Shown: positions 13,101 to 42,839 of the stretch, in pieces
Layout of the letters: every line of letters begins with the position of its first letter
Position numbering within the stretch: position 1 is the first letter of the stretch
Origin: Limisphaerales bacterium
GTDB lineage: Bacteria; Verrucomicrobiota; Verrucomicrobiia; Limisphaerales; SXTU01
DNA: 43,002 nucleotides
NCBI GenBank assembly: GCA_009773355.1
Contig: WRPG01000046.1
Location: 1 to 43,002, forward strand
Direction: 5' to 3'
The notes under the pieces: model-generated
What the model was told of the DNA's origin: nothing
Databases searched by the model: none
Seen by the model: the letters and a program-made list of their open reading frames with translations, nothing else
Position numbers and translations under genes: made by a program

Positions 13101-16100
13101 GCAATCATCTCAACAAGGCTCGATGAATTACGACGGACGCGCCACCAGTGCTGCCCGGCGAGTCGCCGGGCAGGACGGGCGGGTCGCCCGTGCCACCCCG
13201 GAGTCGGAGACCGGCGCTCCGAACTACACGAACCTTCTCCCGCCGAACACACTCAACGGCGACAACTCGCGTCTGCCCTCGTCGCCCGTTGCGAGCGCGC
13301 CGCGTGTGAACTTGGAGCAATCACTCACCAACCTCACCGACAACGCCCTCGGCTTCCTTGACCTCAAGGACGGCGACACGCTGCCGATGGCGCAGGCGAA
13401 CGTGCGCGTGAAGGGTGTGCTCGGCGCGACGTTCGTCCTGCGCGTCAATGGCCAGGCTGTGCCAGACAGCCGCATCGGCAGGCGGGCTACGCTCGAAGCG
13501 AAGCGGCTTCAGGCATGGGAGTTTATCGGCGTCAGTTTCCAGCCCGGCACGAACGCGCTCGAATTGCTCCAGCAGGATTCCTTCGGCAACGCGCGCGGCT
13601 CGGTGTCCATCACCGTCCGCGCGCCGAACAAGCTGGGGCGCACCCAAATCCTCCTGCCGAAGTCGGAGCAACCCGCCGACGGCGTGACGCCCGCGCGCAT
13701 CACCGTGCGGCTCACGGACGCGGACGGCGTGCCGGTCACATCGCGCACACCGCTCACGCTCGAAGCCAGTCACGGACGCTGGCAGACAGAGGACTTGGAC
13801 CCGCGCGAACCAGCCACGCAGGTCTTCATCGAGGGCGGACGCGGCGAGTATTTGTTGCTGCCGCCTGCTGAACCGGTCACGGCGGAGATTCGTGTCAGCA
13901 GCGGCGTGCTCGGTGCCCGCGCCGAGCTGCCGTTCCTCCCCGACCTGCGCCCGTTGCTCGCGGTTGGTGTGGTCGAGGGCGCGATTAACCTCCGCAGTTT
14001 GAGCATCAGCTCGCTCGTGCCCGCGCGGTCACGCGACGGCTTTGAGGAAGAGTTGCGTTCCTTCGCCACGAGCAGCGCGGACGGCAAGGTGCAGGGCGGC
14101 GGTCGCGTCGCGTTCTTCATCAAGGGCAAAATCAAGGGCGACTACCTGCTCACCGCCGGTTACGACTCGGACAAGGACACGCGCGAGCGGCTTTTCCGCG
14201 ACATCCGGCCGGACGAGTTTTATCCGGTTTATGGCGACGCGTCGGTGCGCGGCTTCGACGCGCAGTCCACGGGCCGGCTCTACGTGCGCGTGGACAAGCG
14301 CAAGAGCTACCTGCTCTACGGCGATTTCAACACCGCGTCGCCCGCGCTGGAGGGCCGTGGTCTCGCGAACTACAGCCGCAGCCTCACGGGCATCAAGGAG
14401 CACTTCGAGAACCGTCGCGTGCGCGCGAACGTGTGGGCCAGCGAGGACAGCACGCGGCAGGTGGTGGAGGAAATCGCGGGCAACGGCACGTCCGGCCCGT
14501 ATCGCTTCCGCACTGGCAACGCGCTCGTGAACAGCGAGCGGGTCGAGGTGCTCACGCGCGACCCGAACCATCCCGACATCATCCTCCGGGCGCAGGCGAT
14601 GGCGCGCTTCACGGACTACACGTTCGAGCCGTTCACGGGCGAGCTGCTCTTCAAGGCGCCGGTGCCGAGCCTCGACGCGAGCCTGAATCCCATCTCGATT
14701 CGCGTGACCTACGAGACCGAACAGGGCGGCGACCGGTTCTGGGTCTATGGCGGCGACGCACAGTTGAAACTGACGGAGCGCGTGGAAGTCGGCGGCTCGG
14801 CGGTGCGTGACGAAAATCCGCTGAACCATTATCAGCTCTACAGCGCGAACATGACGCTTAAGCTCGCGCCGCAGACGTTCCTCTTTGGCGAAGTGGCGCG
14901 GAGTGAATCCGAACTCGGCGGCATCGGCGACGCGGGGCGCGTGGAGTTGCGGCACAAGTCAGCGGGCACGGAACTGCGCGCGTATTTCGGCGAGACGGCG
15001 GGCACGTTCACCAACGCCGGCTCGATTCAGTTGCCGGGCCGCATCGAGGGCGGGTTGAAGTTGTCGCTGCGGCTTGATGAGAAGACACGCGTCACGGTGC
15101 AAGGCGTGTTGACCGACGAAACGCAGACGGGCAGCACACGGCGCGGCGTGGGCGTGGATGTGGAGCGAACTCTGCCAGGCAACGTGCGCGTCGAGGTCGG
15201 CGGGCGCGTGAGCGAGGAGACGACCGCCACCGGGACAGGCGGCGGCGCGCGGAACGATGTGCGCAGCGCGAAAGTGAAAGCAACCGCGCCCGTGCCGAAG
15301 CTGCCGGGCGCATCGGTGAACGCGGAATACGAGAACGACCTGGTCGCGACGGAGCGGCGCACGGTGGCGGTGGGCACGGATTATCAGTTGCGGAACAAGA
15401 CGCGGCTTTATGCAAAGCACGAGTTTGTGTCCGACCTCGCGGGACCGCTGGAGGCAAACGCCTTTGGCCAGCGCAACACGACCGTTGTCGGCCTCGACAC
15501 CGAATACATGCGCGACGGGCAGTTGTTCAACGAATACCGCGCGCGTGACTCCGTGAGCGGGCGCGAGGCAGAGGGGGCCATTGGCTTGCGCAACCTCTGG
15601 CACGTCGCGGACGGCTTGCGGCTGAACACGACCTTCGAGCGCGTCATGGCGATGCAGGGTGACGGTCGCAATGAGTCCACCGCCGGCACCGCCGCCATCG
15701 AATACACGCGCGACCCCGACTGGAAGGGCACCGCCCGCCTCGAACTGCGCGACGGCGCGAACAGCGACAGCCTGCTCAACACGCTCGGCTACGCGCGCAA
15801 GCTCGACCGCGACTGGACGTTCCTGGGCAAGACCATCCTCTATCTCGTGGACAACTCCGCACCAGGTTCGCACGACCGCGTGCAGGGGCGCCTCCAGACC
15901 GGCCTCGCGTGGCGGCAGACGGACGTGGACCGCTGGAGTGCGCTGATGAAATACGAATTCAAATACGAGGACGGCGACGTGTTCGACGCGACGAGCAGCC
16001 TGCGCCGGCAGGTTCACATTCTCTCGCTCCACGCGAACCACAAGCCGAGCGCCGAGTGGACGTTGAGCGGGCATTACGCGGGCAAGCTCTCGCTCGACAC

Positions 16101-33617: not shown

Positions 33618-33674
33618 TGGCGGAAGGAGTAGGATTCGAACCTACGGTTCGTTTTCGACCGAAGCCGTTGTCAA
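33618..33674 (-). tRNA. 3' fragment of a tRNA-Ser-like gene (attachment-site remnant)
   Basis: On the minus strand the sequence has a T-arm (GTAGGTTCGAATCCTAC, complement of 33629-33645), a long variable arm that can pair (GGTCG-AAAA-CGAACC), a 7-nt acceptor strand TCCTTCC, discriminator G and an encoded CCA ending at 33618. A long variable arm with discriminator G fits tRNA-Ser. No matching 5' half (GGAAGGA acceptor strand) exists to the right, where the integrase gene begins. This is therefore the displaced 3' end left when the element integrated. The point where tRNA identity stops, near 33674, is approximate. Confidence 0.7.
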
Positions 33675-33734
33675 TTTATTGGATTTCTGATAGCTCTAAA
33701 CACCGTTGACAGAACTAGTTGTTATGCAAAAGTT

Positions 33735-34937
33735 ATGCCGATTATGGCGAGCTTGCATCGACAACCCGGCAAACCGAACTGGTTCTGCGCCTACACAACT
33801 CCGGATGGCGTCAGGCGCTTCCGATCCACCCAGACCTCCGACAAGAAGCAAGCGTGGCAAGTCTGCAACACATGGGCCAAAGCGTCCACGTTAGGCGGGA
33901 AGCTGACACCAGAGCGAGCGCGAGAAGTGATCGCGGCTGGCGTAGCGGATGTCCTAATGGCAACCGGACAAACCCTGCCCAGCGCAACCATCCGCGCTTG
34001 GTTCAAGCGGTGGCTGGAATTTAAGGAAGTAGAGAACGAACAGCGAACACATGAGCGGTATGAACTGTCGGTCCGCCGGTTTCTGAACTATCTGGGAAGT
34101 AAAGCGGACAGGGATTTGACGACACTTACTGCTGATGAGCTGATTCGATTTCGTGACGAAACCGCGAAGTCCCTTTCGGCCACATCCTGCAACATGGACC
34201 TGAAAGTGATTCGCGCATGCTTGGGTTCGGCCGTGCGGCAAGATTTGATCGAGAAAAACGCGGCCAAGAACGTCGCCGTTTTGAAGCAGCGCGGGGAACA
34301 CAAGCGACGGGCGTTCACTTTGGCTGAAATACAGAAAGTGCTGACTGTTTGCGATGAACGCGGCGGGGAATGGCGAGGACTGGTGCTGACCGCCGTTTAC
34401 ACGGGGCAACGACTTGGCGACGTCGCGCGGCTTACCTGGCAGCAGGTTGACCTGTCAAAGCGGCAAGTCTCGTTTGTCACAGAGAAGACCGGAAAGCGGC
34501 TGTCACTCTCAATGGCCAAGCCGCTCTTCGATTTCCTAGAATCGTTGCCTTCGTCGGATGATCCCAAGGACTTTGTGTTTCCCCACGCCGCCGCTGCCGT
34601 TGAAAAGCGGACGGGCACCATGTCCACTAAGTTTTACGATGAGATCTTGGCTCCGGCCGGCTTGGTGCCGGTGCGGTCCAAGCAGCGTGCTGACGACGGG
34701 AAAGGTCGTGCAGCGCGGCGAACCCAGAGCGAGATTTCCTTTCATTCGTTTCGGCACACGTTGACGACCTGGTTGAAAAGCGCTGGAGCAAGCAATGCGT
34801 TGGCGCAAATGATCATCGGGCACGACAGCGAAGTAGTTTCCCGAGGCTACACCCATCTGAGCGCCGACGACACGATGGATTCGATCAACAAATTGCCAGA
34901 CGTAACTGGTAAGAAGAACCAACCGAAGGCGGGATAA
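33735..34937 (+). CDS. Tyrosine recombinase (phage-type integrase)
   Basis: A 400-residue integrase. It has an N-terminal arm-binding-like region, a core-binding SAM-like domain (about 88-170, ERYELSVRRFLNYLG) and a catalytic domain. Catalytic residues are Arg226 (YTGQRLGDVARL), a candidate Lys in TEKTGKRL (about 250), His337 and Arg340 (SFHSFRHTLTTWL), His363 (GHDSEVVSRGYTH) and the nucleophile Tyr372. All are present, so the enzyme should be active. It begins about 60 nt from the tRNA 3' fragment and reads into the element, the usual layout for tRNA-targeted islands. ATG 33735 was taken; ATG 33744 is also possible. Confidence 0.93.
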   Translation: MPIMASLHRQPGKPNWFCAYTTPDGVRRFRSTQTSDKKQAWQVCNTWAKASTLGGKLTPERAREVIAAGVADVLMATGQTLPSATIRAWFKRWLEFKEVENEQRTHERYELSVRRFLNYLGSKADRDLTTLTADELIRFRDETAKSLSATSCNMDLKVIRACLGSAVRQDLIEKNAAKNVAVLKQRGEHKRRAFTLAEIQKVLTVCDERGGEWRGLVLTAVYTGQRLGDVARLTWQQVDLSKRQVSFVTEKTGKRLSLSMAKPLFDFLESLPSSDDPKDFVFPHAAAAVEKRTGTMSTKFYDEILAPAGLVPVRSKQRADDGKGRAARRTQSEISFHSFRHTLTTWLKSAGASNALAQMIIGHDSEVVSRGYTHLSADDTMDSINKLPDVTGKKNQPKAG

Positions 34938-34956
34938 GGTTCGTGATCGAACCGCC

Positions 34957-35024
34957 ACCACATCGACGCCGAGACCAAGCGCAAGGCCGTGGACAAGATG
35001 CCGGACATCTTCCTCGGCAAGTAA
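34957..35024 (+). pseudogene. C-terminal remnant of a second integrase-like gene
   Basis: Within the 210-nt gap after the integrase, one frame reads HHIDAETKRKAVDKMPDIFLGK before a TAA at 35022-35024. This resembles the end of other tyrosine recombinases after the catalytic YTH (YTHxDAETKRxAxxxMPDI). No recombinase sequence precedes it, so it looks like the tail of an earlier or replaced integrase. Only about 22 codons are involved, so the call is tentative. Confidence 0.4.
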
Positions 35025-35111
35025 CCAGTGAACGCTTCCATGGTAACAGGCTCGGTGGCGTTGGTTTCGGTGTAATCCAAGCTCTCCCATCGTCGTCTTC
35101 GTTTACGGTTT

Positions 35112-35140
35112 TGTAAGAATCTCCGCTGCTTTCTCGCTGT
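35112..35140 (+). promoter_or_regulatory. Putative ECF promoter, copy 1
   Basis: TGTAAGAA at 35112-35119, a 15-nt spacer and CGCTGT at 35135-35140. The -10-like element ends 7 nt before ATG 35148 of the excisionase-like gene, so the transcript would be leaderless or nearly so. It shares the -35-like octamer and exact spacer with three other copies in the element. Confidence 0.6.
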
Positions 35141-35147
35141 TGAGGGC

Positions 35148-35471
35148 ATGAAGATGAACGCAACGACAACCGCAGCAGCACAAGCCGACAATCAACCGTC
35201 AATCACCCCCGAGTTCATCCGCTTACCAAAGCCAGGCACGCTTTGTCGCTGGACCGGCCTTTCCCGCAGCAAGCTCAACGAATTGATCCTCCCCAGCCCG
35301 TTGAACAGCTTCAAACCGCCCGTCCGGTCGTTGTCGTTGAGGAATCGCGGCCAGATCAAGGCGGTGCGGTTGATCGTGCTGGAATCCCTCCTCGGCTACC
35401 TGCGCGGCCTCCTTGAACAGCAGTCCACCGAGGCCCACAGCGGATACTCAACGGCTTGTGGCGCGTCGTGA
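35148..35471 (+). CDS. Small DNA-binding protein, excisionase/AlpA-like
   Basis: A 107-residue protein. Its central part (RLPKPGTLCRWTGLSRSKLNELI...PVRSLSLRNRGQIKAVRLIVLESLLGYLR) fits the winged-helix layout of excisionase/MerR-type proteins: an N-terminal helix-turn-helix (LCRWTGLSRSKLNELI), a beta wing (VRSLSLRNRGQIKAVRLI) and a closing helix. Genes of this type near a tyrosine recombinase usually encode the recombination directionality factor or a repressor; which of these applies is not shown by the sequence. A motif shared with the ECF-sigma region lies directly upstream. ATG 35148 and ATG 35154 are both possible starts. Confidence 0.75.
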   Translation: MKMNATTTAAAQADNQPSITPEFIRLPKPGTLCRWTGLSRSKLNELILPSPLNSFKPPVRSLSLRNRGQIKAVRLIVLESLLGYLRGLLEQQSTEAHSGYSTACGAS

Positions 35472-35638
35472 ACCTCCAGCAAACGCGTCTATGCAGGTTC
35501 AACGAATCAAAACAGCGGGAAGGCGGCGGTTGCTCGATCCAGCCAGCTCCGTTACGGTCGCCACAGGAACCCAGCGCGGAAATCCGGCTTTGAAATCCTG
35601 GCACCGGCGGGGTTGCTCAAACTGATAGGCGAAATCGA

Positions 35639-35881
35639 ATGAAAGCCATCGAACAGGAAATGCCGGATGACGTTTACCAAAAGCTGGAAAGCTTGGCGTC
35701 GCACGATCATCAACGGGTGGATGCGTTCGCGCGGCAGAAGCTGGAGGAGCTGGTGGGGGCCGTGGAGAACTTCGCGGAGCTGGAGCGTCGTGCGCAGCGG
35801 GGCAACATCGACAAGTTTCGCGCCGCCATGGCCCAGGTGCCCAACGTGCCGCCAATGCCAGGGGATGAGTTGCCGCGATAG
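35639..35881 (+). CDS. Antitoxin-like small protein
   Basis: An 80-residue helical protein with an N-terminal PDDVYQKLESLASHDHQRVDAFARQKLEEL segment, similar in layout to ribbon-helix-helix or SpoVT-type antitoxins. Its C-terminal tail, AQVPNVPPMPGDELPR, is of the kind seen in small Verrucomicrobial and cyanobacterial antitoxins. A PIN or other toxin gene would be expected next to it, but the following gene is on the opposite strand and unrelated. It is therefore either an orphan antitoxin or a small protein of unknown role. Only the gene call itself is reasonably firm. Confidence 0.6.
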   Translation: MKAIEQEMPDDVYQKLESLASHDHQRVDAFARQKLEELVGAVENFAELERRAQRGNIDKFRAAMAQVPNVPPMPGDELPR

Positions 35882-35945
35882 GGAAACAGAAGCCCTGACG
35901 AGCCACTGGAAGGCATAAGCAGCCTCCCAGCTTACAGGTGAGCGA

Positions 35946-36725
35946 CTACCGGATGAGCTGAAAAGCCAAGCGCTGGGAGAAATGCTTCCACTTGGCCGAG
36001 TCGATGAGGAGTTCCGCCCCCAAGCAAGCCAGGCCCATCAATCCCACGACAACGGCCAGCATGTGCAATCCGCAGAAGCCAATGTAGAGGAAATCGCGTG
36101 CAAAGAAGCGGAACGTCACGATTGTCAGGTAGGTCGGACGCACGGCAAGGTGGAAGATGGGAAACAGCAGCACCACGCCAGCGAGGTAACGTGCTTGGCA
36201 AAGAGCAGCTACCATTGGCCGTTGCGTTTGCGGCTGCCAGCGAATCAGTCTGGCCGCTCCCCACGCAATGAACCCGATGTAGAAGCCACCGAGGCCGTTG
36301 AGGAAATTGGCGGCGCTGAAAGGCAACATCACTTCCGCGAGGTCGACCGGCTTGCCATCAAGCTCTAGGCGGTAATAGACGTCCAGCACCGTCAGCCAGG
36401 CTATGAAGAAACTGGCCGCGAGGAAAATCACCACCCGCTCGGTCTGGTAACGGCGGTAGGTGAGGATTCGCAACAGCCAAGGTCGGCGTAAGCTCTTGGC
36501 GACAGCCTTGACCGGGCCAAAGGCTTCAATGGCACGTTGCTGGGCAGCATCGGTGCTCAAGTTCAACGCCACGCCCTCCCGCCATTTCTCCTGTAGATGC
36601 GTCGCCAGTTCGTGCGCCCTCAACGGCCATTCGTCGTAATCCAAGGCCGCCCGCTCACAAACTTCCGAGGCGAGCCGTTCAAAGGCTAGGCTGACTGCGG
36701 GAGGGATTCGCTCGCCAGAATCCAT
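35946..36725 (-). CDS. Membrane protein with HAAS/permease-prefix N-terminus
   Basis: A 259-residue protein read leftward. The first 85 residues are soluble and helical, with the pattern HLQEKWREGVALNLSTDAAQQRAIEAFGPVKAVAKSL. This is typical of the HAAS (DUF1700/permease prefix domain 1) module that accompanies PadR regulators. Four or five transmembrane helices follow (VVIFLAASFFIAWLTVL; FLNGLGGFYIGFIAWGAA; ARYLAGVVLLFPIFHLAV; LYIGFCGLHMLAVVVGLMGLACL). It starts 6 nt after the PadR gene, so the two are one operon. PadR-HAAS pairs are known as regulator/membrane-partner modules, and HAAS proteins are thought to work with the regulator. Any transport or anti-sigma role is inference. Confidence 0.8.
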   Translation of the reverse strand: MDSGERIPPAVSLAFERLASEVCERAALDYDEWPLRAHELATHLQEKWREGVALNLSTDAAQQRAIEAFGPVKAVAKSLRRPWLLRILTYRRYQTERVVIFLAASFFIAWLTVLDVYYRLELDGKPVDLAEVMLPFSAANFLNGLGGFYIGFIAWGAARLIRWQPQTQRPMVAALCQARYLAGVVLLFPIFHLAVRPTYLTIVTFRFFARDFLYIGFCGLHMLAVVVGLMGLACLGAELLIDSAKWKHFSQRLAFQLIR

Positions 36726-36731
36726 GTTGCT

Positions 36732-37193
36732 TCATGCCTTCTTGAGCAGCATTTCCGCCCAAGCCCCAGTTTCGGCCTGAATCGCTGACTTCTCGGCCAA
36801 CCGCAGACCACCGGCATCCGTCAGCCGATACATCTTCAGCATCCGAGTGCTGCTTTCCCGCCATTCCCCTTGCAGCAAGCCGGAGGATTCCATCGTTGCC
36901 AGCAATCCGTAAATCGCGCCTTCGCCTTGGCCAGCCAACCGAAATAGCCCCTGGTTGAGCTTGCTGATCAACTCGAATCCATCGGCGGGTTGTTCAGCGA
37001 TGAGCCTCAGCAACAGCGCCTCCATCTGCTTCTCGGACAACTCCTTGGGCAGCGGAAACTCCTCGTTCAGCACCCGCTCAAATGCAGCCCGCACCCGGTC
37101 AGGCTGTCCAGCCGGCGGGTCCGCCAGCTTGTTGACGAGCGGCCCCACCTGCTTCAGCAGGGCTTCCAGCTTCAGTTTTTCAGCATCATTCAT
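36732..37193 (-). CDS. PadR-family winged-helix regulator, extended N-terminus
   Basis: A 153-residue protein read leftward from ATG 37193. The C-terminal 90 residues are a PadR-type winged helix: LRLIAEQPADGFELISKLNQGLFRLAGQGEGAIYGLLATMESSGLLQGEWRESSTRMLKMYRLTDAG contains the helix-turn-helix and the wing, with the usual GxxY-like core. The N-terminal 65 residues form an extra helical segment rather than the usual immediate start. PadR proteins repress genes encoding envelope or efflux functions, often their own operon. It lies 32 nt after the sigma gene and 6 nt before the HAAS membrane gene, and a sigma-type promoter motif sits in the 32-nt gap. Confidence 0.82.
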   Translation of the reverse strand: MNDAEKLKLEALLKQVGPLVNKLADPPAGQPDRVRAAFERVLNEEFPLPKELSEKQMEALLLRLIAEQPADGFELISKLNQGLFRLAGQGEGAIYGLLATMESSGLLQGEWRESSTRMLKMYRLTDAGGLRLAEKSAIQAETGAWAEMLLKKA

Positions 37194-37201
37194 CCGGGTA
37201 G

Positions 37202-37230
37202 ATAACGGGATCGTTCCAACGCTTCTTACA
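37202..37230 (-). promoter_or_regulatory. Putative ECF promoter, copy 4 (before PadR)
   Basis: On the minus strand TGTAAGAA covers 37230-37223, the spacer is 15 nt, and CGTTAT covers 37207-37202. The octamer includes the stop codon of the sigma gene. The -10-like element ends 8 nt before the PadR ATG. This would give the PadR-membrane pair its own sigma-dependent promoter inside the operon. Confidence 0.65.
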
Positions 37231-37795
37231 GCAAAAGTTCATCTTTCTTCAGAATCTTGTGCAGGGCCTCCAACCCCCGCTGCAAATACACGCCGATGGA
37301 ACCGATTTTCAGCCCATGTTTGTCAGCAATCTCCTGCTGGGTGAGGCCGTTGAAGTAGGACTCCTCCACGACTTTCCGGTATTGCTCAGAAATCTGCCTC
37401 AAAGCCTCCCTTACCATTGCGGCCCGTTCTCCGTGGATAACCGCCACATCGGGCTGCTGCTGGCTTTGATCGGGAGCGTTGCTTACTTCCGTGTCCTCCG
37501 GTTCCACCAGCTTGCCTCCGCCGTGCTTCAGGGTTGAACGCTGACGAAAGATGTCGAGCAGTCGGTTCTTGCTGATGGTTGAGACTAGTTTTTTGCACTC
37601 CTCGAAGCTGCTGGCAGTCTTCACGTATTTCACGACCTGGGTGATGGCCTCAATAGCAACATCCTCGTGAGCGTGGTGGTTGAGGTCTGGGGCCGTTGAG
37701 CAGCAGACGCTCAGGCTGATGGCTTTGAGAATCGCGTAGGCCCGGTCCCACGCGTTCCGATCCCCAGCTTTCAGTTGTTCGATTTCAACGTCCAC
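37226..37795 (-). CDS. ECF-type RNA polymerase sigma factor
   Basis: A 189-residue sigma-70-family protein read leftward. Region 2 runs to about residue 90 and ends with the promoter-melting helix STISKNRLLDIFRQR. A 45-residue acidic linker (VEPEDTEVSNAPDQSQQQPD) follows. Region 4 (about 120-185) has the helix-turn-helix YFNGLTQQEIADKHGLKIGSIGVYLQRGLEALHKIL. There is no region 3, which defines the ECF group. No classical anti-sigma gene adjoins it; the PadR and HAAS membrane genes 32 nt downstream take that position. Four copies of a promoter-like motif lie within about 2.9 kb of it, in front of its own operon's later genes and two other genes of the element. Confidence 0.85.
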   Translation of the reverse strand: MDVEIEQLKAGDRNAWDRAYAILKAISLSVCCSTAPDLNHHAHEDVAIEAITQVVKYVKTASSFEECKKLVSTISKNRLLDIFRQRSTLKHGGGKLVEPEDTEVSNAPDQSQQQPDVAVIHGERAAMVREALRQISEQYRKVVEESYFNGLTQQEIADKHGLKIGSIGVYLQRGLEALHKILKKDELLL

Positions 37796-37925
37796 CGGCT
37801 GCTCCGTTGCAAGAAAATCGCTGCTGTTGGGTGAACGTATCGCCCCCAGTATTCCTGATGTGGAATGTTTGCTGGGATTCTTCCCCCGTTGGTTGTCGTC
37901 GCTGGACTACCTCCCAAACAACGCC

Positions 37926-37954
37926 TGTAAGAAATCGCTGAACAACCCCGTTGA
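37926..37954 (+). promoter_or_regulatory. Putative ECF promoter, copy 2
   Basis: TGTAAGAA at 37926-37933, a 15-nt spacer and CGTTGA at 37949-37954. It ends 13 nt before ATG 37968 of the isopentenyltransferase-like gene. It is the first of two tandem copies in front of that gene and lies in the region divergent from the sigma gene. Confidence 0.6.
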
Positions 37955-37967
37955 TACAGCAACGACG

Positions 37968-38837
37968 ATGAACACGAAGCCGACAACCAGCCAGGACCGC
38001 AGCGGAAAACTTCCCTGTAAGAAGTCGCTCAACTTTCTCGCTGATGACGGTGTGAAACAATCACCCTCAACAGCGGGCGCAAAACAACGGGGCGAGCTTC
38101 AGCCTGCCTTCCGCCCGGTTGTCATTCTCGGGCCAACTACCGTGGGCAAGGCGGAGGTGGCTTTTGGTCTGGCCCGACGCCTCAGCACGGAAGTCATCAA
38201 CGCCGACAAGTTCTATCTCTATGATGCCTTGCCGGAGGTCACGGGTCAGTCCGATGCCGACCAATACCCAGATGTCGCCAGCCATCTCTACGGGGTGCTG
38301 CAGCCGGAGGACAGTCTGTGGAGCCAGGCCAAATACAGCAGCGAACTGAAGGCTTGTCTGCCCGGCATCCGCTCACGCGGTCGCGCACCGATCATCGAAG
38401 GTTGTTCCAACGGCCTCATTGGCGCTGCCCTCAACGCACTGAACTCGGCGGCGGAATCACCTGAGGATGCCCCGTTGGTGATTGGCCTGCGGTGGAAGCA
38501 CGCTGGCAACCTGGCAGCCGACTGCGAACGGCGGGCGGCGAAGATGTTCTCGCAAGGGATGCTACCCAGCTTCCGCGAGGCCTGCGCCCAGCGGATGACC
38601 GAAACCTACCTGCTGCGGAAGTGCTTCGCCAGGGAGCCGCTGCTGGCGCACCAGCGCCGCACCTTGTCCCGGTCACGCTGCCAGCATCGCGTCGCCGAGC
38701 TGTTGGAACGTCATGCGCGCCGCCACTACGAGATGCTGGGGCGGATTCCTAATGTTCATTGGATCGACCATGACCGGCAGTGTCCAGAAACCACCATTGA
38801 ACGAATCCTCACGGTGCTGGGGCAACTCGCCAGATGA
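37968..38837 (+). CDS. MiaA/isopentenyltransferase-like P-loop protein
   Basis: 289 residues from ATG 37968, or 261 from GTG 38052. The whole fold of the MiaA/IPT prenyltransferase family is recognisable: a P-loop near 55-62 (VVILGPTTVGKA); VINADKFYLYDALPEVTG, matching the catalytic-Asp segment (ISVDS...YKGMDIGT in MiaA, LDRVQ...LSTGSG in Agrobacterium Ipt); APIIEGCSNGLIGAAL; CERRAAKMFSQGMLPSFREA; and the end VHWIDHDRQ, matching MiaA VHWLDSEK. Family members transfer dimethylallyl groups to tRNA A37 or to free AMP (cytokinin). The P-loop here ends GKA instead of GKT/S, and the RYxQ-like region is weak, so activity or substrate may differ. Two tandem ECF-type promoter motifs precede the alternative starts. 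Confidence 0.72.
   Translation: MNTKPTTSQDRSGKLPCKKSLNFLADDGVKQSPSTAGAKQRGELQPAFRPVVILGPTTVGKAEVAFGLARRLSTEVINADKFYLYDALPEVTGQSDADQYPDVASHLYGVLQPEDSLWSQAKYSSELKACLPGIRSRGRAPIIEGCSNGLIGAALNALNSAAESPEDAPLVIGLRWKHAGNLAADCERRAAKMFSQGMLPSFREACAQRMTETYLLRKCFAREPLLAHQRRTLSRSRCQHRVAELLERHARRHYEMLGRIPNVHWIDHDRQCPETTIERILTVLGQLAR
38016..38044 (+). promoter_or_regulatory. Putative ECF promoter, copy 3
   Basis: TGTAAGAA at 38016-38023, a 15-nt spacer and CGCTGA at 38039-38044. It ends 7 nt before GTG 38052, the same distance as copy 1 has to its ATG. This favours GTG 38052 as one real start of the isopentenyltransferase-like protein. If ATG 37968 is used instead, the motif lies inside the coding frame. 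Confidence 0.55.
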
Positions 38838-38959
38838 CACACTTTCCCCTGGGACTCCAATCCGACCCGCTTGCCCAGGGGGATCAACTATACAGCGGGT
38901 TGGCGCTTGGGATAGTGGCCCTTCCCAGTGTCAAGTGCAGCGGGGTCACAATTAAAACC

Positions 38960-39388
38960 ATGAAGTTGCATCGCACAAAGAAAGCGTCCACCGCGACGCT
39001 CACACCCGAAGGGGCCTACGCCGCGACCGTTACGATGGTCACGTGCAAAGCCAAAGAGGGGACGGCAGAACCGGAAACGGTCGAGGTGCAGTTCACGCTC
39101 AACGAGGTGAACCAGCACATCACTCGGCCCTATCCGGCCAAGATCGAGGGCCGCAGCCCGTTGCTGCGTGACGCCAAGGTCATCCTCGGTCGCGACCTGA
39201 CGCGCGCGGAGGATGAGGAGGGGTTCGACCCGGTCATCCTGAAGGACCGCACCTGCCGCGTGGTCGTGGCTCACCGCCGTGGCTCCAACGGCAAGCTGCA
39301 GGCACAGGCCACCACGGTATTGGCCCCGGTTGCTGCCCCGGTCGCTGCTGCCCCAGCGGTTGAGGCGGTCGCTGCGGTTACTGCCTAG
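38960..39388 (+). CDS. Conserved small protein of replication module, unknown function
   Basis: A 142-residue protein from ATG 38960, with a beta-rich core (GAYAATVTMVTCKAKEGT...VEVQFTLNEVNQHITRPYPAKIEG, CRVVVAHRRGSNGKLQAQATTVLAP) and an Ala/Pro/Val-rich tail. The layout recalls small phage proteins encoded next to helicase/primase genes (DUF669-like or OB-fold single-strand-binding accessory proteins), but I do not recognise a definite family. It is followed 67 nt later by the SF3 helicase gene. The open frame extends upstream to 38834 without good coding character. Confidence 0.65.
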   Translation: MKLHRTKKASTATLTPEGAYAATVTMVTCKAKEGTAEPETVEVQFTLNEVNQHITRPYPAKIEGRSPLLRDAKVILGRDLTRAEDEEGFDPVILKDRTCRVVVAHRRGSNGKLQAQATTVLAPVAAPVAAAPAVEAVAAVTA

Positions 39389-39455
39389 CACCAACGCCCT
39401 GTCGCTCGGGTCAAACCGGGCGGCAGGGCTTCACTCCTTCAACCTACAAAACACC

Positions 39456-40676
39456 ATGAAGAAGCCCACTCTGACAGCCAGCCACACCAGCAAGCCCACC
39501 ACCAGCCAGCCAGCAACGCTCGATCCACAGACAGCCGCAGTGGGTTTTCTTCAAACCAATCAGCTGGCGTTCCACGATGATCCGAAGCGCTTCTTCATCT
39601 TTGTTGAAAAACAGCAGGCCTGGCACCCCATCACCATCAACCAGCTCCATCGGCGGTTGAAGAGCTGGGTGTTGGAGACGCACAAGAACAGCGTCTCGGC
39701 GGCAGCGTTGAAGAAGATGGTGGCTGAACTCGAAGTGGCCGCTCCCTGCTGGACCCCGACGTTGAAGCCCGGCCAGATGGTCGTCGCCAATGGGGTGCTG
39801 GATGTTACAGCAGCCACCCCGTTGTTCTCAGCCAAGGATCAAAACACCCACTTCGCCGACACCCTGACGATCAACTACCAGCCAGCCGCCCAGTGTCCCA
39901 AGTTCCGGCAGTTCCTCGCTGATTCGCTGGCGATCAACGATGCCTCATTGGTCCAGAAGTGGGCTGGTTCGTTGCTAGCCGGCCCGAACCAGTCGCAGGT
40001 GATCTTGATGCTGCTGGGAGCCTCTGGCACCGGCAAAGGGACGTTGGTGTCAATCCTGACGCGGCTGGTAGGGGTAGAGGCGGCAGCAGAGTTGAGGGTT
40101 GGTCAACTGGATGGACGCTTTGAGATGTCGGCGCTCGTCGGGAAGCGGCTGTTGGTCGGCATGGAGATCAACCCCAACCTGCTCAACGGAGACGGGTTGG
40201 GTCGGCTTAAAGCGTTGGTCGGCAATGATCGTATGGAGGCAGAGCTGAAGGGACGTAACCGGCGCGCCTCCATCAACGGCGATTTCCACGTCGTCCTCTA
40301 CGGCAACCAGCTCAATCAGCAGCAGTGGTCGGCCGATTTGGACGCGTTTCGACGCCGCTTGTTGATTGTTGAGTATTCCAAGCAGCCGCCAGCCACCATC
40401 ATCCCTAACCTCGCTGATACGCTTTGGCTGGAGGAAGGCAGCGGCATCCTCAACTGGGCCGTGGAAGGGGTTGGCTGTTACAGGGCTGACTTGCAACAGG
40501 CCGGGCGGTTTGTGCTCACGGTTGATCAACAGCGACGGGTCAACCGCGTCATCCCTCCGCCTCCCGTTGCTGTAGAAGTATCGCCTTCCACTCCACCCGC
40601 AGCACCAGGATCAACGTGGCGGCGATGGATGATGGCCCTACGGCGGCTCTGGCAATCACTGATCCCTGCCAAGTAA
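39456..40676 (+). CDS. SF3 (D5/P4-type) replicative helicase
   Basis: 406 residues from ATG 39456. A D5_N-like region (about 95-180, ending FADTLTINYQPAAQCPKFRQFLADSL) is followed by the superfamily-3 helicase core. Walker A is GASGTGKG at 188-195, Walker B lies in KRLLVGMEIN, and sensor/motif C in FHVVLYGNQLNQ, followed by the arginine-rich FRRRLLIVEY. No primase (prim-pol) domain is fused, unlike P4 alpha, so the element must use host primase or another protein. SF3 helicases unwind origins of phages and plasmids. The initiator gene with iterons follows after 12 nt, so both act together in element replication. Confidence 0.88.
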   Translation: MKKPTLTASHTSKPTTSQPATLDPQTAAVGFLQTNQLAFHDDPKRFFIFVEKQQAWHPITINQLHRRLKSWVLETHKNSVSAAALKKMVAELEVAAPCWTPTLKPGQMVVANGVLDVTAATPLFSAKDQNTHFADTLTINYQPAAQCPKFRQFLADSLAINDASLVQKWAGSLLAGPNQSQVILMLLGASGTGKGTLVSILTRLVGVEAAAELRVGQLDGRFEMSALVGKRLLVGMEINPNLLNGDGLGRLKALVGNDRMEAELKGRNRRASINGDFHVVLYGNQLNQQQWSADLDAFRRRLLIVEYSKQPPATIIPNLADTLWLEEGSGILNWAVEGVGCYRADLQQAGRFVLTVDQQRRVNRVIPPPPVAVEVSPSTPPAAPGSTWRRWMMALRRLWQSLIPAK

Positions 40677-40688
40677 CGGCCAACGTCG

Positions 40689-42839
40689 ATGAGCACCCCG
40701 ACGCAAACCACCGAGGACGAGGCGACAATCGTCGAATCTTCACAGCCAGCACCCTCGCAACCGCCCCCCAGTCTCACCAAAGAGCAAGTCAGGGCGTATT
40801 TGAAGTCTCTCGGCAGGCCAGCAGCGCCAGCCACCTCAGTTGTGGCAGCACCCCCAAATCCTGAGCCTTCAACCCTCGTTGAACCACCCGTTAACCCGCC
40901 GCCGTCGGAACCTTCATCTAAAGCAGTCCACGCGGTTGACGAAGAAATAGTGGCAACCAAAGAGGCGAAGCCCAAGGAACATTCGCTATCAAATACCGTG
41001 GCTGGTCGGTTGGGCTGTCCGGCTGCGGTATTGCTCAAATACCTCGATTATGTGGTCCGCAAGAAAGGCAAGGAGAAGGACGGTCACAAATGGTATCGGG
41101 TCACCTTGGATCATCTGGCTGTAGTTTACCCCTATCTGGGCCGCACCTGCATCGAGGAGACGCTGCAAAAGCTGACTGACGGCGACCAGTCCCCGCTGCT
41201 CGTCCACCACCGCAACTACCACGGTTACGACCGCACCGGTAATTATGCAATTCGGGACCGGCAGCTTGGCGCTCAGAGTCGCACCAACCTCCGCTACTTC
41301 CGAGCTGATGACGCGCTCAGCCATGGCATTCCTGCCGCCCTCCTGCTCCACAACCTGCGCTATTGGGCCAGCCGTAACGACGCGGCAGATGATGGCTGGC
41401 AGGCGGTAAAGGTCGGTGAGCTTGCCAAAGTGCTGCCGTTGACGACGAAACAGATCCGCGACGCGCTCAAAAGCCTCGTCGCAACGGGGATGCTGGAACG
41501 CACTGCACCCGCTGGCAAGCATCGGTGCTGGCGCTACCGGCTGGCGGAGCCAAAACCGGCCCAAGTGACAATTCCGGATACGACAGTGACAAAAGCGGAT
41601 ATGCAGGTGACAAATCCGGATATGGAGGTGACAAAAGCGGACAACTATAATAGTTATCAGTCTCAGTCAGCAGTCGGGGTTAGTCAGTCAATCAATTACT
41701 CAGTGCGCCCGGCTCCGCCGTCCGCGATGGGTGCTTGTCAAACTCACTCGGCAGAGGTTGAACAAGAGGCAAGCTCTACAACATTCAATGCTGAACAACG
41801 TCAAACCGCTCCAGTGACTCGTTCCGACCGGCAAACGGCATTGGTTGTTCCGGTTGATGATGGCAAACCACAGTTGGCTTGTTCCGATGCCACTGCAATC
41901 AGTCCTGTTGAAGCGACTACATCAACTGAGCTGGCCGTTCCGAAACCCTCAACTCTTTGGCCGCCGACAATCAAGGAGTTGCAAACACTGGCGTGGATTA
42001 AGTTCAGCAAGGTCGAGAAAGAGGCCAAAGCCAACCTTGAACTCCTTGTCGAACAGGAGTTGGATTTGCTGGTAAAATCGGAATCCATCGAAGCCCTCGA
42101 CCGCTATAGTCAAATGCTTAAGCTGGAAATCCTCTACACGGCATTGCAGCCGTTGGTCTCAACGCTTCAGTTCGATGCGGTTATGGATCGCGATGCATCA
42201 GTCCTCAACGCACTCAAACAACTGGCCATGATGTTCTTGGTGGATGCCTTCCGTTACTTTGACTCCCAACATCGGCATGGTGCCGGCCAACAGTATTCAT
42301 ATCGCATTCACCTCGATATGCTGCGCAAGCTACAACCGCTCCGCAAGGCCCGTATCGAGAAGCATAGGCAGCAGTTTGCTGCGGCGAAGCGGGCGGAGTG
42401 GGAGGCGAGGCGTCAACAACATCGCAGCCCGGATGAATCCTTGGAGGGTGACGCAGCACTGTCAGCAGCGAAGAAGGTAAAAGTGTTGGAGAACGCCATC
42501 AACGCACGGAATCTGACCGGTGTGCTGGACGATAAGTATCAACTCCACGCCAATCTGCTCAACTTCAACGCCAACTCATTGTTCAACGCCAAGGAGTTCT
42601 TCAACACCAACGCTGATGTTACGCCTGCACATTTACTCGAAGTGATGGATGTCTGTGCCGCCTACGTTGCCAACAACCCGCTGGAGGATGGCGAATACGA
42701 CGAGAACTACGAGCTTAGAAAGGGAACTCACCTGACCTCGCTGTTAAATTCGCTGCCGACCATCGTTGCTGCTTCCGGGCTGGGACAATCGATACGGGCT
42801 CTCATCGGTGTCAATACTGCCATTGAGGAAGAAGAATAG
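40689..42839 (+). CDS. Replication initiator with internal iterons
   Basis: A 716-residue protein. A Pro/Ser-rich N-terminus (1-95) leads into two winged-helix units, about 95-190 (RLGCPAAVLLKYLDYVV...LDHLAVVYPYLGRTCIEETLQKL) and 195-290 (IPAALLLHNLRYWAS...VKVGELAKVLPLTTKQIRDALKSLVATGMLER), typical of phage/plasmid Rep proteins. Residues 293-320 are a repeated VTxxD stretch encoded by four 21-nt iterons, followed by a low-complexity polar linker. The C-terminal half (about 430-716) is helical, with coiled-coil character around ARIEKHRQQFAAAKRAEWEARRQQ, and shows no family that I recognise. Gene order after the SF3 helicase and the embedded iterons point to origin binding in the manner of phage lambda O. 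The C-terminus probably recruits the helicase; this is inference. Confidence 0.8.
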   Translation: MSTPTQTTEDEATIVESSQPAPSQPPPSLTKEQVRAYLKSLGRPAAPATSVVAAPPNPEPSTLVEPPVNPPPSEPSSKAVHAVDEEIVATKEAKPKEHSLSNTVAGRLGCPAAVLLKYLDYVVRKKGKEKDGHKWYRVTLDHLAVVYPYLGRTCIEETLQKLTDGDQSPLLVHHRNYHGYDRTGNYAIRDRQLGAQSRTNLRYFRADDALSHGIPAALLLHNLRYWASRNDAADDGWQAVKVGELAKVLPLTTKQIRDALKSLVATGMLERTAPAGKHRCWRYRLAEPKPAQVTIPDTTVTKADMQVTNPDMEVTKADNYNSYQSQSAVGVSQSINYSVRPAPPSAMGACQTHSAEVEQEASSTTFNAEQRQTAPVTRSDRQTALVVPVDDGKPQLACSDATAISPVEATTSTELAVPKPSTLWPPTIKELQTLAWIKFSKVEKEAKANLELLVEQELDLLVKSESIEALDRYSQMLKLEILYTALQPLVSTLQFDAVMDRDASVLNALKQLAMMFLVDAFRYFDSQHRHGAGQQYSYRIHLDMLRKLQPLRKARIEKHRQQFAAAKRAEWEARRQQHRSPDESLEGDAALSAAKKVKVLENAINARNLTGVLDDKYQLHANLLNFNANSLFNAKEFFNTNADVTPAHLLEVMDVCAAYVANNPLEDGEYDENYELRKGTHLTSLLNSLPTIVAASGLGQSIRALIGVNTAIEEEE
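41565..41648 (+). other. Four 21-nt iterons, candidate replication origin
   Basis: Four direct repeats begin at 41565, 41586, 41607 and 41628. Consensus start is GTGACAAAnnCGGATATG; copies 1 and 4 are the most divergent. The fourth repeat runs into an AT-richer stretch (AACTATAATAGTTATCAG), then repeated CAGTC/GTCAGT words to about 41705. Iterons inside the initiator gene followed by an AT-rich region is the organisation of the lambda origin. The repeats are in frame and encode VTIPDTT, VTKADMQ, VTNPDME and VTKADNY. Confidence 0.7.

Follow-up and report, generated by a model that had tools for sequence, protein, structure and literature searches.

Induction of integrative elements is generally attributed to phage-type repressors or the SOS response. 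Here we analyzed a contig of 43,002 nucleotides from a Limisphaerales bacterium (WRPG01000046.1, assembly GCA_009773355.1; the whole contig is referred to as the window), which contains part of a tRNA-inserted island carrying a gene for an extracytoplasmic function (ECF) sigma factor and four copies of a promoter-like motif. The four sites are probably promoters of the island's own sigma factor, a reading to which we assign a probability of about 0.82. The nearest functional precedent is SigN (ZpdN) of the Bacillus subtilis plasmid pBS32, a weakly ECF-like sigma factor that has a promoter consensus of its own, directs an element-borne regulon, is held by chromosomal LexA and is self-activating (PMC6751061). 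Both systems combine an element-borne sigma factor and its own regulon with a sigma gene held by a repressor (presumed for the island), and, as expected of a SigN-type system, all four genome-wide copies of the motif are confined to the island. The island differs from pBS32 in that no sigma-type promoter precedes the sigma gene, which gives no sign of self-activation; the presumed repressor would be encoded by the island itself (a palindrome is shared with a Cro/CI-type gene; no LexA-directed test was made); sigma is linked to an anti-sigma-like gene; and the targets include genes for excision and replication.

Four other types of system were compared. Type III-E CRISPR loci encode CASP-sigma, Csx30 and TPR-CHAT, that is, an ECF sigma factor, an inhibitor and a TPR-CHAT protein, with matching promoters at the locus (PMC10028731). 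Similarly, several related islands contain a sigma gene, a transmembrane (TM) anti-sigma-like gene and a TPR-CHAT gene in a row; unlike in the CASP-sigma set, their TPR-CHAT proteins appear to be secreted and their presumed inhibitor contains a membrane segment, and the window has no TPR-CHAT gene. No Cas7-11-sized gene was found in one such island (L039), where the sole open reading frame (ORF) of more than 1000 aa encodes the TPR-CHAT protein itself. ECF265 is a PadR-associated group of ECF sigma factors in which PadR is a possible regulator and no anti-sigma factor is known (PMC8999054). An ECF sigma gene with a PadR neighbor is common to ECF265 and the island (likened by description only), but PadR of the island is fused to a domain that elsewhere has the architecture of an anti-sigma factor. 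With P4-like satellites and other tRNA-integrating islands the element shares an integrase, an excisionase-like gene, a P4-type primase and insertion at a tRNA 3′ end, and it differs in that an ECF sigma factor seems to control its induction. No helper-phage dependence or packaging genes were identified in the window, which ends before the right end of the island. The ECF-type sigma factors of gut phages such as cr50_1 are likewise of SigW type, but they are only 24%–30% identical and are carried by phages, not integrated islands.

Element-borne sigma factors were therefore already known, while this family, its promoter, a regulon of excision, replication and anti-sigma genes, and two-layer control were not found in a literature search that covered few subscription papers; the same search found no such switch in Verrucomicrobia. 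If ECF sigma factor, anti-sigma domain, excisionase and replication genes form one private regulon, the mobility of the island would be the output of a sensor. The promoter appears specific enough for the regulon to be read from sequence alone, and the island would provide a natural, probably orthogonal set of sigma factor, promoter and anti-sigma factor from uncultured bacteria.

Distribution and conservation of the motif

The original prediction described the octamer TGTAAGAA at four sites (35112 +, 37230 −, 37926 + and 38016 +; sites A–D), each followed after 15 nt by CG[CT]T[GA][TA] and ending 7, 8, 13 and 7 nt, respectively, before a start codon. The octamer was found four times in the window (0.15 expected), at exactly these sites, and both the 15-nt spacing (4/4 copies) and the distances to the start codons were correct. 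In 100 dinucleotide shuffles of the window, TGTAAGAA-N15-CGYTRW had 0 matches, compared with 4 in the real sequence. A search of the host genome (6.16 Mb, 162 contigs) with TGTAAGAA-N15-CG[CT]T returned four matches, all inside the island and within one 2.9 kb span, and a longer pattern with one mismatch allowed yielded no extra copies in that genome.

Including those of the window, 36 motif copies were collected from related tRNA-inserted islands. Across these copies the −35 element TGTAAGAA is invariant, the spacer is always 15 nt, and the −10 core is CGYT with invariant C and G. Every copy in the genus islands is oriented toward a start codon, which lies 36–37 nt from the first −35 base in classes A, B and D and 42–46 nt in class C. 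The classical ECF −35 element is AAC, for which the island has TGTAAGAA instead. A CGT-type −10 element at a fixed spacing from a defined −35 element is the arrangement of ECF promoters, and is consistent with recognition of the motif by the sigma factor.

The motif and the sigma gene were then sought in ten more genomes from this genus. Both were present in four (G001, G003, G007 and G010), three motif copies and the excisionase-like gene were present in a fifth (G004, an assembly of short contigs with one broken gene copy), and the remaining five had no motif copies; motif copies in the genus were confined to genomes carrying this sigma factor or its islands. When homologous islands were compared, the motif recurred at the same genes with diverged flanks. 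At class A sites, both boxes were 100% identical and the spacer 58%–69%, and the upstream flanks were 28%–30% identical, which equals chance. To avoid the circularity of finding islands by the motif, class A homologs were also collected by protein search; all seven excisionase-like homologs (at least 84% identity) had the motif at the same distance, preceded by unrelated DNA. A further excisionase-like gene with the motif (L047 8199 +), which has a stop near its 3′ end and no integrase or sigma gene nearby, is likely from a decayed island.

Linkage to the sigma gene and alternative explanations

In an order-wide protein search, the sigma factor was detected at 35%–38% identity in two genomes of another family. 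By pattern search of the 49 genomes of that family, these two contained five and three motif copies, none more than ~5 kb from the sigma gene, and the other 47 contained six single hits. In this second family, a copy overlapping the sigma stop codon points to the gene that follows, one or two are arranged divergently to sigma, and one precedes an HTH_17/TIGR01764 excisionase gene. None of 16 other ECF sigma genes checked had a TGTAAGAA octamer less than 1.5 kb away. Because the motif tracks the sigma gene, we concluded that it is probably the promoter of the island ECF sigma factor. Near the integrase and the sigma gene of a third lineage (L101, 30% identical), two copies of TGTAAGAA-N15-CGTAAT were found (7927 + and 10006 +), and L113 carries TGTAAGAA-N15-CGATTT; these variants suggest that the −35 element is retained while the −10 element drifts. 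In two contigs of one genome (L049 10316 + and L102 8748 −), TGTAAGAA is followed by TTTCGATAAT and conserved DNA, perhaps the promoter of another sigma factor with a different −10 element.

Chance repetition was rejected on the basis of the shuffles, the genome-wide confinement and the co-occurrence with sigma in the second family. Confinement, recurrence at the same genes and co-occurrence with the sigma gene also support the original prediction of a private ECF sigma regulon in a mobile element. Comparison of the islands establishes the invariant −35 element, the 15-nt spacer, the CGYT core, the restriction to islands, the linkage to sigma across two families and a conserved set of targets: the excisionase-like gene, the sigma-adjacent gene and the replication operon. 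Two of the targets first proposed were revised. Site B does precede the PadR-membrane protein pair, but PadR is only one version of a sigma-adjacent gene with an anti-sigma-like N-terminus; sites C and D do precede the isopentenyltransferase (IPT)-like gene, but this pair of sites serves the replication operon, in which the IPT-like gene is variable cargo.

It is improbable that the motif is instead the binding site of another island protein, such as PadR, the excisionase or integrase (arm sites) or the replication initiator: although motif sites lie near the genes of all these proteins, and some islands do contain PadR, the motif consists of two direct boxes with a fixed 15-nt spacing, a CG(C/T)T −10 element and, in the genus islands, always a start codon 36–46 nt on, most motif-bearing islands lack PadR, and at the distant sites the nearby excisionases are different and the common gene is sigma. 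If the repeats were traces of gene 5′ ends that had been duplicated, or of cassette borders, and were maintained by recent recombination instead of function, it would be clear why conservation within each class runs from the −10 element into the first codons and why downstream gene bodies are swapped between islands. This origin is very unlikely, as the 15-nt spacer has diverged and both boxes have not, and the same boxes occur in islands whose sigma factors share only 34%–38% identity. We give hardly any credence to a coding repeat, in which the motif would specify a short peptide (CKK...). All copies but one share the reading frame of the start codon that they precede, the spacing of C and D is divisible by 3 in six islands (window, 90; L037, 105; L039, 108; L041, 99; L042, 96; L110, 153) and the frame is open through D in five genus islands, but the exception, copy B, does not fit the frame, several islands have stop codons before copy A, and variation in the C–D leader is alike across codon positions (23/23/30 of 175), with no clear coding signal. 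The open C–D frame with its multiple-of-3 spacing may be a translated leader. Borrowed promoters of a host sigma factor or host activator, which would account for the G004 copies found without a close sigma gene, can be dismissed with similar assurance, since the motif tracks the island sigma factor across two families and its absence elsewhere in each host genome indicates that no host regulon uses it.

Several observations weigh against assigning the sites to the island sigma factor. No close sigma gene was found in G004 despite its three motif copies; many islands were located through the exact motif, which in part biases the collection toward identical boxes; and the motif is missing before the sigma gene, whereas many ECF sigma factors autoregulate. 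The excisionase-like protein of the window had no family match of its own, its AlphaFold model was of low confidence (predicted local distance difference test [pLDDT] score 52), and a profile comparison of its family with the distant HTH_17 excisionases gave no match; one divergent homolog had weak HTH_17/TIGR01764 hits. As the window contig stops before the repressor gene, the repressor part of the model described below rests on relatives.

Possible control of the sigma factor and a proposed induction switch

The sigma factor (189 aa) consists of sigma2 and sigma4 domains only, scores above cut-off with TIGR02937 and PF08281 as expected of the ECF (group IV) class, and its family profile aligns end to end with SigW. 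Relatives were absent from viral contigs, and only remote ones were found in phage and plasmid records. Positive autoregulation is common among ECF sigma factors but is not required; autoregulation was rejected here, as sigma is not preceded by a TGTAAGAA promoter in any of the five genus islands that include this region. In the same position, a 20-nt block is invariant in five islands and contains the palindrome ACATTCC-N6-GGAATGT; in the genus genomes, the exact block occurs in islands only. With up to 2 mismatches in 14 allowed, 8 copies of the palindrome were counted in 215 kb of island sequence (0.6 expected), ahead of sigma in 5/5 islands and directly ahead of a Cro/CI-type gene in 3/3. 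This gene (67–68 aa, HTH_31 9e-11) is located on the right-hand side of three islands, in L039 at 13123–13326. An island-encoded repressor controlling both itself and sigma would be the simplest reading of the shared palindrome.

A ~48-aa domain is encoded by a gene that always adjoins sigma, usually with one TM segment after the domain. In most related islands the sigma-adjacent protein is ~215 aa and consists of the ~48-aa N-terminus, a single hydrophobic segment WWIGLATATAAVVLVVVL and a C-terminal part; residues 1–48 of the window PadR protein are the same domain. In distant islands the domain stands alone (56–58 aa), its gene is preceded by the motif, and a PadR-type gene with a second copy of the domain follows. 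A profile built from the genus sequences was run against the 957 ORFs of four distant loci and matched no genes but the sigma-adjacent ones. By position and architecture, the domain may be an anti-sigma factor, one possibility being the short CnrY/NepR class (PMC8103513), and the different fusions would amount to a Rosetta stone, one anti-sigma-like domain joined to different sensors. The AlphaFold model of the TM anti-sigma-like protein was of low confidence (pLDDT 50). The next gene in TM-type islands encodes the TPR-CHAT protein, which reaches ~1000 aa in complete copies and begins with a stretch resembling a signal peptide (L039 2972–6274 −, L040 1375–4407 +, L041 3–3110 −, L043 616–3134 −).

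In the proposed mechanism, the integrated island would be kept quiet by the island Cro/CI-type repressor bound to ACATTCC-N6-GGAATGT before the sigma gene, and the anti-sigma-like domain encoded by the next gene would restrain any sigma factor made; this domain is usually tethered to the membrane and in the window is fused to PadR beside a membrane protein. Once a signal relieved this hold, RNA polymerase containing the sigma factor would start at an estimated 3–13 nt before the start codons. Because these lie 36–46 nt past the first −35 base, the mRNAs from the four sites would be leaderless, as originally predicted, or nearly so, if initiation occurs ~10 nt after the −10 C. Site A would then provide the excisionase-like protein, turning the separately expressed integrase toward excision, site B would switch on the anti-sigma gene as negative feedback, and sites C and D would switch on the replication operon, the whole acting as a sigma-based induction switch of an integrative element. 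A fuller version is tentative, and we rate it at slightly less than even odds: a two-layer switch in which the Cro/CI-type repressor is combined with an exchangeable anti-sigma signal module (TM protein and secreted TPR-CHAT, or PadR and membrane protein), the freed sigma factor drives excision, replication and its own anti-sigma factor, and the island responds to an extracytoplasmic signal instead of, or besides, DNA damage.

Annotated features of the island

Features are listed in Table 1. The predicted ECF sigma, PadR and IPT/MiaA-like gene calls were upheld by Pfam and NCBIfam profiles.

Table 1. Features of the island in the window, with coordinates, strand and evidence (HTH, helix-turn-helix)
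Feature	Position	Strand	Evidence
3′ tRNA fragment (T-arm), presumed attL	33626..33646		tRNA 3′ ends beside integrase in six other islands
TTGACA, presumed housekeeping −35 of integrase	33706..33711	+	kept in 6/7 islands, TGGACA in the seventh
Tyrosine integrase	33735..34937	+	PF00589 3.9e-18; PHROG integrase 1.3e-49
Probable sigma promoter A, upstream of excisionase-like gene	35112..35140	+	exact motif; 7/7 close homologs
Excisionase-like gene (putative HTH)	35148..35471	+	84%–93% conserved across islands
Membrane protein, weak permease-prefix match	35946..36725	−	NF038403, below its cut-off
Sigma-adjacent gene: ~48-aa anti-sigma-like domain (37047–37193) fused to PadR	36732..37193	−	PF03551 3e-12; shared N-terminal domain
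Probable sigma promoter B, overlaps sigma stop codon	37202..37230	−	exact motif; same site before this gene in 11 other islands
ECF sigma factor	37226..37795	−	TIGR02937 1e-15, above cut-off; PF08281 9.4e-13
Palindrome, operator candidate ahead of sigma	37849..37868		ACATTCC-N6-GGAATGT, 2 mismatches
Probable sigma promoter C, start of divergent operon	37926..37954	+	exact motif; kept in 6 other islands
Probable sigma promoter D, second promoter of divergent operon	38016..38044	+	exact motif; kept in 6 other islands
IPT/MiaA-like cargo gene, start 37968 or 38052	37968..38837	+	TIGR00174 1.4e-16, below cut-off; matches solved IPTs
Conserved small gene, replication operon (start probably 38960)	38834..39388	+	island homologs; weak NGO0469 replication match
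P4-type primase (start probably 39456)	39279..40676	+	TIGR01613 2e-34
Phage-type replication initiator	40689..42839	+	PHROG 11233 1.4e-12

The contig end at 43002 precedes the right end of the island; attR of the window island and the right ends of the other islands were searched for and not found. The tRNA 3′ ends at the equivalent place beside the integrase in six other islands derive from several different tRNAs, and the L101 island retains a whole tRNA-Lys. The integrase probably lies outside sigma control, given that it is preceded by a conserved TTGACA of its own. A sigma-70 promoter scan of 34900–39300 gave no match, and a PADLOC scan detected no specific defense system. Relatives among named genomes are metagenome-assembled, one being labeled Verrucomicrobiales.

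The IPT/MiaA-like protein was present in just one other island (L050 1–846, 61% identical); its P-loop half matches solved IPTs and its C-terminal half matches them poorly. A small conserved, coiled-looking protein (MNDLKQYLKLKAAL...) is encoded at the right-hand side of three islands (L050 6653–6913 −, L039 12005–12397 −, L038 9264–9632 −), and an NYN-type (Zc3h12a-like) RNase gene is located directly past the divergent promoters of a distant island (L110 10121–10771 +).

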